Below are positions 34,920-38,815 of a stretch of 43,099 nt of DNA, piece after piece. The stretch comes from a virus. The stretch is taken from the IMG/VR virus record IMGVR_UViG_3300021247_000816, positions 1 through 43,099 of that record, one strand, 5' to 3'. The position numbers were made by a program, and so were the translations under genes. The notes below the pieces were generated by a model. The model was not told the DNA's origin. It searched no databases and worked only from the letters and a program-made list of their open reading frames with translations. Position 1 is the first letter of the stretch. The number at the start of each line of letters is the position of its first letter.

Positions 34920-35471
34920 ATGTCAGTTATAGCACTTGCAACAATAGATGCACAAAACTTTCAGATAGGTAATCCTGGGGGTGTACGGAATGTATATGCG
35001 ATTCTCTCTCGTCAGATTACTGGAGTCTGGCCAAATGAAACTGTGATTGATGGAGAAGGCTTAGTAACAGCTTTGCCTACATTGGTAACTGGGGCAAAAT
35101 GGTCGCAATATTTATTTCCAGATGGAACTGCTGAGTTTTCATTTGATGGTGGTGGAGACCCTTCTTATCAGAGTTATAAGCACATGATTGAGTTAGCCTT
35201 GGCAGGCTCAAATACTGCTGTTAGAAAAGAAGTTAGAAAATTTCTTAATGCTGGTGGTGTTTTCTTGATTGAAGATAAGTCGGGCAATTTTGTAGTATTG
35301 GGTAATTCAGATGACCCTATATATTTGAAACCTTCATTCAAATCGGGAAAGAAAGGGAACGACAAGCGTGGTTATACGTTAAAGGGCGAGGTAGATGGGA
35401 TGATGTGGGAGCAGGTATTTTTGACTCCTTCGTTGATTGCTACACTTGAATTTAATGCCCTACCCAGTTGA
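34920..35471 (+). CDS. major tail tube-like protein
   Basis: A 183-aa protein of mixed beta content. It contains SFDGGGDPSYQSYKHMIELALAG in the middle and SGKKGNDKRGYTLKGEVDGMMWE near the C-terminus. The latter is a typical segment of Bacteroidota phage tail tube proteins. Its position after the capsid gene, away from the other tail genes, is unusual for siphoviruses but suits a highly expressed structural protein. A small hairpin (CCTGAC/GTCAGG, 35473-35488) follows. Confidence 0.65.
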   Translation: MSVIALATIDAQNFQIGNPGGVRNVYAILSRQITGVWPNETVIDGEGLVTALPTLVTGAKWSQYLFPDGTAEFSFDGGGDPSYQSYKHMIELALAGSNTAVRKEVRKFLNAGGVFLIEDKSGNFVVLGNSDDPIYLKPSFKSGKKGNDKRGYTLKGEVDGMMWEQVFLTPSLIATLEFNALPS

Positions 35472-35809: not shown

Positions 35810-36067
35810 ATGTCAAAAGATAATAAAAATACGAAAAAAATTACTCAACCGCCGATTGAAGAGCTACCAGTTGAGCAACCACCGATTGAAGAGCTACCAG
35901 TTGAGCAACCGCCTATTGAAGAGCTACCAGTTGAGCAAACACCGATTGAAGAACCAGAGTTGTCAAAGTCTGAACGTGTCAAGATAGCTGCTCAAAAATA
36001 TTTAGATTCAATTCAAAAAGCAGCTGATGACAGAACACCAAAAGTTGAAGAAGAAGAAGCTGAATAA
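35810..36067 (+). CDS. small protein with PPIEELPVEQ decapeptide repeats
   Basis: An 85-aa protein with three complete decapeptides PPIEELPVEQ and a partial fourth (TPIEEPELSK), encoded by 30-bp direct repeats. The acidic N-terminal tail resembles proline-rich linkers. The C-terminal part is charged and helical (SERVKIAAQKYLDSIQKAADD). I chose the ATG at 35810 over an upstream TTG. Function unknown; the repeat can expand or contract. Confidence 0.6.
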   Translation: MSKDNKNTKKITQPPIEELPVEQPPIEELPVEQPPIEELPVEQTPIEEPELSKSERVKIAAQKYLDSIQKAADDRTPKVEEEEAE

Positions 36068-36088: not shown

Positions 36089-36118
36089 AAAAGCCTTTGT
36101 CAAGTGCAAAGGCTTTTT
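36089..36118 (+). terminator. intrinsic terminator
   Basis: AAAAGCCTTTG pairs with CAAAGGCTTTT around a 7-nt loop and ends in Ts. It closes the capsid block; the structured RNA begins 13 nt later. Confidence 0.88.
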
Positions 36119-36130
36119 GTATATTTGAAA

Positions 36131-36232
36131 TGCGAAACACTTATTGATATATTACCATAGCCATCGGAATGACATTCCGAGTGGCATGGGTTGGAAGTAC
36201 CCAAATGGCTTTGGTAACAAAGGTGTTTCGCA
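36131..36232 (+). ncRNA. structured RNA candidate with two alternative folds
   Basis: The ends pair perfectly over 10 bp (TGCGAAACAC with GTGTTTCGCA). Fold 1 adds a 13-position helix (TTACCATAGCCAT with ATGGCTTTGGTAA, one T-T mismatch) that encloses two hairpins, CGGAAT-GAC-ATTCCG and TGGGT/ACCCA. Fold 2 instead extends the first hairpin (GCCA with TGGC) and makes CTTTG-GTAA-CAAAG with a GNRA loop. The two folds share bases and exclude each other, as in riboswitches. It lies 21 nt upstream of the next start codon. No known RNA family is recognised. Confidence 0.65.
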
Positions 36233-36253
36233 AGTGACCATCTCGGATTTATT

Positions 36254-36538
36254 ATGTCTTCAGCCTCAATTCCTCCTTTGCCGTTTTTCCTTTCAAAAGT
36301 TATTCATTTGAATAATCTTATAGCAGGTATATCGGCATATTTAGAGTTACTTCAAAATGAGCTTCAAGAAGTTGAGATATATGAGAATCCGATGTTGTAT
36401 GTTGAAAGAATTGATTACTACGAAAAAATTGCTTCATTTTTACAAATATTGACAAATGAGCGAGAGCGAAATCAAAAGCCAGCGAATGAAAGCGACAGCG
36501 TTGCTGGAGCTGATGAAAATGGAGAAAAGAACAGGTAA
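36254..36538 (+). CDS. hypothetical protein downstream of the structured RNA
   Basis: A 94-aa helical protein (FLSKVIHLNNLIAGISAYLELLQNEL) with a charged C-terminus. It overlaps the next gene by up to 83 nt in a different frame. Unrecognised. If the structured RNA upstream is a regulator, this gene and its partner would be its first targets. Confidence 0.6.
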   Translation: MSSASIPPLPFFLSKVIHLNNLIAGISAYLELLQNELQEVEIYENPMLYVERIDYYEKIASFLQILTNERERNQKPANESDSVAGADENGEKNR

Positions 36539-37094
36539 GTACTCCATTGGGCAACTTGCTGAACAGGAAGCCATCGTGCTATCTTTTCGGAACTACACAA
36601 ATGAAGCTCCAAAAAATCTACCAAGTAAGCCTACAATTGAACCCCAAGTTATAGAAAAGAAACCAGTAGTTGAACTCAATGCAGATGTTCAATTATTAGT
36701 TAATGCCATCAAAGCTGAGATGGATGCTATCGACGATGAAAAAAGTCGTTTGGCAAATAAAATGGCTGACATTGCTGACAATATTAATTGTGCTGATATT
36801 GTAGCTCAAATTAAAGCTTTACGAGGAAAGTGGGTTCAAAAAAACGATTTGTTTTGGTATGTCAAAACTCATGGTGAAATGCCTGAAGTACAGAGTATTG
36901 AACGTCCAATTAATCTTCCAAATGATAAGTTTGAATTGAATAAGATGTTACTTAATACAAGGTCTAATTTATCGAAGTATCGTTCTCGATTACGGGATGC
37001 AAAAACAGAAGTAAATAAGCAACATTACCAAAAACAAATCAGAATTTCAGAAAATCTTATCAGTGAAATTGACTTAAAAATGACTGTTGTATGA
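36456..37094 (+). CDS. coiled-coil hypothetical protein
   Basis: A 212-aa protein with helices likely to form coiled coils (about residues 80-125 and 165-205) and a Pro/Lys-rich linker (about 53-72). The N-terminal 28 codons overlap the previous gene. A second in-frame ATG at 36486 would shorten this overlap to 53 nt. Segment ALRGKWVQKNDLFWYVKTHGEMP may form a small folded part. It overlaps the next gene by ATGA. No family recognised. Confidence 0.6.
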   Translation: MSESEIKSQRMKATALLELMKMEKRTGKYSIGQLAEQEAIVLSFRNYTNEAPKNLPSKPTIEPQVIEKKPVVELNADVQLLVNAIKAEMDAIDDEKSRLANKMADIADNINCADIVAQIKALRGKWVQKNDLFWYVKTHGEMPEVQSIERPINLPNDKFELNKMLLNTRSNLSKYRSRLRDAKTEVNKQHYQKQIRISENLISEIDLKMTVV

Positions 37095-37460: not shown

Positions 37461-38078
37461 ATGACAGAGCTATTTATAACCGAAAAAGTAAAGATTTCTG
37501 ATTTGATTCCGAATGAAATCAATCCTCGTAAAATTAAAGAGATTGAAAAACGTAAGCTGTGGGAACGCCTTCAAAAGTTTGGGATGATTGGCATACCAGT
37601 ACGTGATGCTAATGGCTCATTACTCAGCGGCCACCAGCGATGCCAAGTTTATTTGTCGTATGGACTTGGAGATAAAGAAATTGATGTTCGTACTGCTACC
37701 AGAAAGCTAACTGATGATGAGATTAGAGAAATAATGCTAATCGAAAATACTCATGCTGGAGAATTCGACATTGAAAAATTATTCGCTGAATTTGATGATT
37801 ACGTTAATTTAGATGATTTTGGGATTTCTTTTGATGAAATAACAAAAGAAATGGCTGAAGAGCATACAAAAGTTGATGAACCTCAATACCCGATTGTGCC
37901 AAAATATAGCGAGAAGTATTCTGCTGTTGTGATTGTAATCGAAAACTCGATTGATGAAAACTTTGTGCGTGAAGTACTTGGCTTACAAATCGCAAAGGAC
38001 TATAAGACCGAAAACGTTGGTGATTCTTATGTTCTTAACGCTAAACAATTTATAGAAAAATGGCAACAGAGAGCATAA
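37461..38078 (+). CDS. ParB/Srx-fold protein
   Basis: A 205-aa protein with an N-terminal ParB-like domain: the INPRKI strand-turn at about residues 20-25, IPVRDANGSLLSGHQRCQVYL (GHQR at 57-60), and a helical region to about 130. The C-terminal part (about 140-205) is unassigned. ParB folds can bind CTP and cut or bind nucleic acids. In phages they often sit beside DNA-modifying enzymes, and here the gene overlaps the glycosyltransferase gene by 19 nt. There is no HTH half or ParA partner, so plasmid-type partitioning is unlikely. Confidence 0.78.
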   Translation: MTELFITEKVKISDLIPNEINPRKIKEIEKRKLWERLQKFGMIGIPVRDANGSLLSGHQRCQVYLSYGLGDKEIDVRTATRKLTDDEIREIMLIENTHAGEFDIEKLFAEFDDYVNLDDFGISFDEITKEMAEEHTKVDEPQYPIVPKYSEKYSAVVIVIENSIDENFVREVLGLQIAKDYKTENVGDSYVLNAKQFIEKWQQRA

Positions 38079-38815
38079 AAGAGGGTAGCCTACCTGTATT
38101 AATTGCCAGCCACAAGAGGGCTGATAAAATCACAACGCATAAGAAGGTTTCAAACTCAATAATTTGCATACCTGAAAGCCAATTTTGCGATTATCGAGAG
38201 AAATGCCCAGACACGGAAATTGTATGCCATCCAGATAGTATTATTGGTCTTTCTTGGAAGCGTCAATGGATGTTCGAACATTTTGGCGATGCTTTTCATC
38301 TTGATGATGATTTATCTTATATGAAGCGTATTTATTCGGAACCAGGAGAAAAAGATAAATTAACTCCTGATGAGATTTACAACGTTATCCAATCAACAGC
38401 CATTGCAGCTCGTCAGGCTGGAGTGTATTTGTTTGGATTTAATACTTCAGGCAAACCATTTACTTACAGTTCACTTTCGCCAATTCAACTTAGTGGATAT
38501 GTAAATACTTGTGCATTCGGTCTGTTTACTGGCTCAAAGCTTTATTTTAGGCCCGAACAACGATTTCAGGAAGATTATTGGATTAGTGGTTTGAATGCCT
38601 ATCTAAACCGCAAAATTTGGCGTGATAATAGGTTTTACTTTCATTTCGGTGAAACTTGGGTCGGCTCTGGTGGATTGGCTGAGTTTCGTAATTTTGAAAC
38701 CCTTGAAAAAACACTCGATGAGCTTCAGGGATTTTTCGGTAAGGATGTTATTTGTGTAAGAAAGAAAGGCACAATTAACCATCCGTATCAAATGAACTTT
38801 AAAACTCCTTTTTAA
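38060..38815 (+). CDS. TAGT-like glycosyltransferase
   Basis: A 251-aa GT-A-fold glycosyltransferase. The N-terminal LPVLIASHKRADKI, the ICIPES element, the GLSWKRQWMFEHFG helix and the metal-binding FHLDDDLSYMKR (D82-D84) match the layout of the TAGT family. Those enzymes were proposed to glycosylate hydroxymethylated pyrimidines in phage DNA. The acceptor could instead be protein or lipid. No TET/JBP dioxygenase or hydroxymethyltransferase is visible, so the modified base it would need is unexplained. The start overlaps the ParB-like gene. Confidence 0.7.
   Translation: MATESIKEGSLPVLIASHKRADKITTHKKVSNSIICIPESQFCDYREKCPDTEIVCHPDSIIGLSWKRQWMFEHFGDAFHLDDDLSYMKRIYSEPGEKDKLTPDEIYNVIQSTAIAARQAGVYLFGFNTSGKPFTYSSLSPIQLSGYVNTCAFGLFTGSKLYFRPEQRFQEDYWISGLNAYLNRKIWRDNRFYFHFGETWVGSGGLAEFRNFETLEKTLDELQGFFGKDVICVRKKGTINHPYQMNFKTPF

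Follow-up and report, generated by a model that had tools for sequence, protein, structure and literature searches.

A putative pseudoknotted RNA leader with competing pairings in prophages and chromosomal cassettes of Cytophagales

Comparative sequence analysis identifies an uncatalogued family of conserved structured RNA, one member of which lies upstream of a small gene in a virus genome (IMG/VR record IMGVR_UViG_3300021247_000816, positions 1 to 43,099; this stretch of 43,099 nt is referred to as the window). By this comparative evidence the element is real and is RNA, and we assign a probability of roughly 0.6 to its being a 5′ leader that switches translation of the downstream gene of ~80–95 aa. 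We rate it as a new family of a known kind, the structured regulatory leader, in which the combination of competing pairings is unusual.

The element in the window is predicted to form a compact leader of ~116 nt, in which the helices P1 and P2 are stacked, a junction carries the hairpins P3 and P4, and the strand that joins these two hairpins pairs with the 3′ tail as a pseudoknot (Table 1). Folded as a 121-nt stretch, it reaches −42.9 kcal/mol compared with −24.9 kcal/mol for shuffled sequences (z −5.2; 0/200 dinucleotide shuffles). An earlier note, made from the letters of the window alone, had described a perfect closing helix of 10 bp, an inner helix and several small hairpins between 36131 and 36232. 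All of these are present: the closing helix (TGCGAAACAC/GTGTTTCGCA) joins 36131–36140 with 36223–36232, the inner helix (P2) has 12/13 positions paired with a single T·T mismatch, and the small hairpins are P3, P4 and the alternative CTTTG-GTAA-CAAAG (P5). The placement was also read correctly, with the terminator ending at 36117 and the gene starting 21 nt past 36232. The boundaries had to be revised: the pseudoknot extends the element to 36247, and a −7 promoter box had been overlooked. The first T-A pair of the 10-bp helix probably lies outside the RNA, the predicted start of which is 36132.

Table 1 Position of the RNA element, its parts and the neighbouring features in the window.
Feature	Position	Strand	Basis
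Intrinsic terminator of the upstream structural-gene operon	36089..36117	+	Overlaps the promoter region of the RNA; arrangement repeated in homologous prophages
Bacteroidota −7 promoter box TATATTTG	36120..36127	+	Exactly 4 nt before P1
P1, 5′ strand (36132, predicted transcription start)	36132..36142	+	P1 99.5% paired, all 9 pairs covary
P2, 5′ strand	36152..36164	+	Fold, pair counts, swap test
P3 hairpin CGGAAU-GAC-AUUCCG	36165..36179	+	Fold, pair counts, swap test
Pseudoknot, 5′ strand UCCGAGUGG	36176..36184	+	92% paired; changes on both sides in 7/9 pairs
P4 hairpin UGGGU-UGGAAGU-ACCCA, conserved U-GNRA-G(U) loop	36187..36203	+	Fold, pair counts, conservation
P2, 3′ strand	36205..36217	+	Fold, pair counts, swap test
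P5 alternative hairpin CUUUG-GUAA-CAAAG, exclusive with outer P2	36209..36222	+	Swap test, clash count
P1, 3′ strand	36221..36231	+	Fold, pair counts
Linker GYGA, near-invariant, unpaired, between P1 and pseudoknot strand	36234..36237	+	Conservation
Pseudoknot, 3′ strand CCAUCUCGGA	36238..36247	+	Pair counts; 6 nt between its end and the ATG at 36254
Downstream gene of 94 aa, entirely helical, outside known families	36254..36538	+	A homologue comes after the RNA in nearly all phage copies
Second gene of 212 aa, helical; overlaps the first, with its start uncertain	36456..37094	+	Conserved partner of the 94-aa gene

Neither DNA-level searches of phage records with the element nor an exact DNA pattern in viral contigs yielded a homologue, and searching with the capsid or the 212-aa protein singly gave no relatives. 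Through the large terminase, one distant prophage of the same gene order was reached, in which the terminator is followed directly by a homologue of the gene at 36254, without the RNA. A profile of the 183-aa protein (34920–35471) was used to find syntenic prophages of Spirosomaceae, namely in Runella, Larkinella, Lacihabitans, Arsenicibacter, Siphonobacter and Spirosoma. The RNA copies in Runella, Arsenicibacter and Lacihabitans ranked highest among the weak matches of a sequence-profile scan, each precisely in the syntenic position; those in Larkinella terrae and a second Runella were recognised by inspection. Among 15 informative distinct syntenic stretches (window included) the RNA is present in 6/15 and absent from 9/15, so the 94-aa gene can do without it.

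A covariance model built from two Runella sequences with the window excluded (R1) recovered the window at E 3e-5, and the other copies as well, unaided. Rebuilt models found 26 copies in 22/222 genomes of the family and matches in 34/390 genomes drawn from the order and 4/395 drawn from the phylum, with about 70 copies in Cytophagales. Weak model scores on the minus strand (L020:7361-7480 and L024:7330-7444) fall on the same elements, owing to self-complementarity.

Three types of copy can be distinguished. Type 1 comprises prophages of the window kind, with the RNA before a gene of ~70–95 aa and a partner of ~215 aa; type 2 comprises other prophages, with genes of ~72–110 aa and ~240–257 aa; and type 3 comprises dispersed chromosomal copies before an ORF of ~95 aa beginning MQT or MRT. 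In a few copies, no intact ORF lies close by (L041, L047, L061, L068, L073, L075, L088, L092). For example, at L041:1501-1635 the RNA is intact, the start codon is unrecognisable and a DNA adenine methylase gene follows instead.

Pairing was counted at 33 pairs in 70 matches (66 distinct sequences). In the distinct sequences 91.5% of cells were paired, compared with 64.7% after shuffling and 35.5–47% after sliding by 1–3 columns; the alignment was fitted to P1–P4, so their counts lean towards the structure, and those of the pseudoknot do not. The earlier note had named homologues with uncompensated helix-breaking substitutions as evidence against its proposal. The opposite was found: both sides had changed in 31/33 pairs, with 570 double-changed cells compared with 170 in the shuffled control, and the outcome was repeated with the 25 distinct sequences underlying model R3. 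The pseudoknot was never in the structure of the model, and its pairing and double changes (Table 1) were found all the same, with UUGG/CCAA replaced by GUAAG/CUUAC, ACAGG/CCUGU, GGAGAGG/CCUCUCC or GGGGGAG/UUCCUCC. The covariance analysis suggested in that note thus supports a conserved structured RNA, with compensatory changes in excess of both the shuffled and the slid controls. About 15 positions are near-invariant, and near-invariant or sequence-conserved parts are the P1 start GCNAAC, a C following the pseudoknot strand, the loop U-GNRA-GU in P4 and the GYGA linker.

In mapped flavobacterial promoters the −7 box occupies −12 to −5 (PMC9723704). Since the box in the window ends 4 nt upstream of P1, +1 is predicted at the first base of P1. 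A strict TAnnTTTG was present 3–5 nt before P1 in 50/64 distinct upstream regions (expected ~0.002), with a spacing of exactly 4 nt in 46/64. There is no terminator between the RNA and the ORF. The gap between the 3′ strand of the pseudoknot and the ATG was 3–16 nt in the phage type, mostly 5–8 nt in type 1 (6 nt in the window), 18–22 nt in type 2 and about 25 nt in type 3. Because of the promoter, the spacing and an ORF not preceded by a terminator, we interpret the RNA as the leader of the downstream gene. No function could be assigned to the downstream genes from Pfam, NCBIfam, PHROGs or PADLOC, and no recognised domain or RNA-binding family was found in the two proteins; structure prediction and a fold search with the 94-aa protein returned helical-hairpin matches only (E above 0.5).

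The competing pairings were assessed by swap tests, in which strands were exchanged between sequences with one sequence per 70% cluster (42 clusters; 2000 permutations). For P1, P2, P5 and the pseudoknot, no permutation was as good (0/2000 each). P5 shares part of the 3′ strand of P2, and almost all P2 pairs clash with P5; the choice of CTTTGG to pair inward or across, which the earlier note had read from the window, holds family-wide. At about −1 to −7 kcal/mol, with one case at −11, P5 almost always falls short of P2 in strength and may therefore be only a folding intermediate. In the phage type, the P3 base can be lengthened by pairing with the pseudoknot strand, in the window as GCCA/UGGC. 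This competition was equalled in 2/2000 permutations in type 1 compared with 1343/2000 in type 3, and freeing the pseudoknot strand in type 1 costs mostly 7–17 kcal/mol. The proposed choice of GCCA between a near TGGC and a distant ATGGC survives as a part of this competition, although the main alternative partner is the pseudoknot strand beside the start codon, outside the coordinates then considered; as the main switch it has been replaced by the P3 base versus the pseudoknot. Mutually exclusive pairing as such is a conserved property, for P2 versus P5 throughout the family and for the P3 base versus the pseudoknot in phages.

Type 3 has a third competing pairing, which includes the start codon. 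Here, the sequence beginning at the G of AUG is a copy of the 5′ strand of P1 and can pair with the 3′ strand of P1 across 9–19 nt, usually with a Watson-Crick pair where P1 has G·U. Among the conserved features of the family are alternative pairings in which the initiation region is either engaged or released.

In the proposed mechanism, the transcript would begin at 36132 at a phage promoter set within the terminator of the preceding operon, and its first ~116 nt would fold into the pseudoknotted leader. In this phylum, Shine-Dalgarno sequences are lacking and local structure around the start codon tunes initiation (PMC6847099), which is why a helix in a tail that stops 6 nt short of the AUG of the 94-aa gene should lower initiation. 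With the pseudoknot formed, the region upstream of the AUG would be double-stranded and initiation low; a competing pairing would remove the pseudoknot, and translation would rise. We infer such switching because the competing pairings are conserved. Candidate triggers are a protein, a ligand or folding during transcription. As unrelated-looking genes follow the RNA in phages and cassettes, a shared host factor or ligand is favoured over control by the own product, and simple autoregulation by the downstream product is not favoured. The family could show how Bacteroidota and their phages switch translation without Shine-Dalgarno sequences; the same RNA serves unrelated-looking phage and cassette genes, and its trigger, once found, would explain both systems.

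A constitutive structural leader could account for part of these data. Here, the 5′ stem at +1 and the pseudoknot would guard the mRNA from decay or fix a low level of translation, and switching would be absent. P1 indeed starts at the predicted +1, P2 is much stronger than P5, and the chromosomal type lacks the P3-base alternative. However, a static protector would not require P5, the P3 base in phages or the start-codon copy of P1 to be selectively kept, and we regard this possibility as unlikely, if still a serious one. More speculative is an extension of the switching leader to a new bistable class of RNA switch, common to Cytophagales phages and a cassette of ~510 bp and answering to one cellular or infection signal. 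The 3′ strand of P1 in the cassette would then choose between the 5′ strand of P1 and the start-codon copy, and the cassettes could be infection responders using the same signal; we hold this wider proposal to be doubtful.

The sequence conservation of the first six pairs of P1 (GCNAAC/GUUNGC), the P4 loop and the linker, amid helices that vary freely, would suit an operator to which a phage or host protein binds in order to repress translation, with the U-GNRA-GU hairpin and the GYGA linker as further contacts. Phage precedent exists in T4 gp32 (PMC535899). Both downstream proteins are helical without a recognisable RNA-binding family, however, and in the chromosomal type the RNA precedes genes that look unrelated, which leaves the operator rather improbable. 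Very unlikely, in our view, is an independent small RNA or a processed or self-cleaving RNA whose position before the gene would be incidental. The compact fold, the own promoter and a number of near-invariant positions typical of a functional core fit such an RNA, but the missing terminator before the ORF, the spacing to the ATG conserved within types, the pairing of the coding start itself in the chromosomal type and the lack of a match to any ribozyme or sRNA family argue against it. A DNA-level element (recombination site or repeated operator) with hairpins acting in single- or double-stranded DNA is hardly credible: the P1 arms form an inverted repeat with a third copy at the start codon in the chromosomal type, and the type-3 unit is dispersed, but the covariation of pseudoknot, junction and GNRA hairpin comes with strand-specific features, and the promoter keeps a single orientation and a fixed distance of 4 nt upstream.

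The preferred reading as a switching leader has several counterparts among known RNAs. In translational pseudoknot riboswitches of the SAM-II, SAM-V, preQ1 and c-di-GMP-II type, pairings that involve the 3′ tail block the initiation region or leave it open. The window RNA would work in a similar way, but its topology differs, Rfam gives no match and the downstream genes are not metabolic. The T4 gene 32 leader, too, belongs to a phage mRNA and places a pseudoknot ahead of the start codon (PMC535899). Its pseudoknot is simple, about 28 nt long and bound by gp32, whereas the RNA in the window comprises ~116 nt with a P1–P4 junction, its pseudoknot strand abuts the AUG and the downstream protein is unrelated to gp32. 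Comparative genomics has revealed further phylum-restricted orphan RNAs of Bacteroidota by covariation, for example Bacteroidales-1, Bacteroid-trp, Flavo-1 and 6S-flavo (PMC2864571). Those with Rfam models do not match the present family, which is associated with phages and cassettes and has a different architecture.

The earlier impression that the element belongs to no known family is borne out by Rfam 15, with 0 matches at the gathering threshold for the window and five prophage homologues. Rfam scans at relaxed thresholds, covering the element in the window, a stretch of L057 and four other loci, gave only sub-threshold matches or none, the window element gave no tRNA match, and no description of this RNA was found in the literature searched, which was covered in part. 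A hairpin-ribozyme identity was rejected at a sub-threshold score (E 8.2; 11.4 versus 65 bits), and the hairpin-ribozyme-like loop GAAACA...UAUAUUACC is attributed to chance, with GAAACA inside P1. An integron attC reading was dropped, P1 being without the boxes, as was a circularly permuted HDV-like topology, for which the would-be catalytic nucleotides between P4 and P2 are not conserved. P4 (GGGUGNRAGUCCC) resembles the epsilon-prime hairpin of group II intron domain I, a lead only; the stretches scanned gave no group II match even with relaxed thresholds, and the setting is not that of an intron.

The chromosomal copies of type 3 form dispersed cassettes of ~510 bp with a promoter, the RNA, the ORF of ~95 aa and a terminator, set in unrelated flanks (L047, L048, L053-L064, L066-L068, L073-L094). 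Homology is confined to the stretch from the promoter (about −22) through about +480–490, and up to six copies occur in one genome. The 95-aa protein had no relative in plasmid or phage records. In L053, L057, L061 and L066, the sequence at the G of AUG (GCAAACTTC...) lies 20–32 nt downstream of the RNA, and in several cassettes, e.g. L057, L061 and L066, the start-codon copy is flanked by CCATTT and AAATGG. Directly downstream of two cassettes we found a PDDEXK-type nuclease matching the candidate defence family PDC-S02 (L062:2088-3119, L085:2738-3769).

Elsewhere in the window, the gene just before the terminator contains tandem coding repeats of ~30 nt (PPIEELPVEQ) at 35850–35950, and the syntenic relative L003 has a low-complexity gene rich in Pro, Glu and Ser at this position. 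At 38060–38815, just downstream of a ParB-like gene, the window encodes a TET-associated glycosyltransferase domain (Pfam TAGT, E 8e-13), which suggests hypermodified phage DNA.
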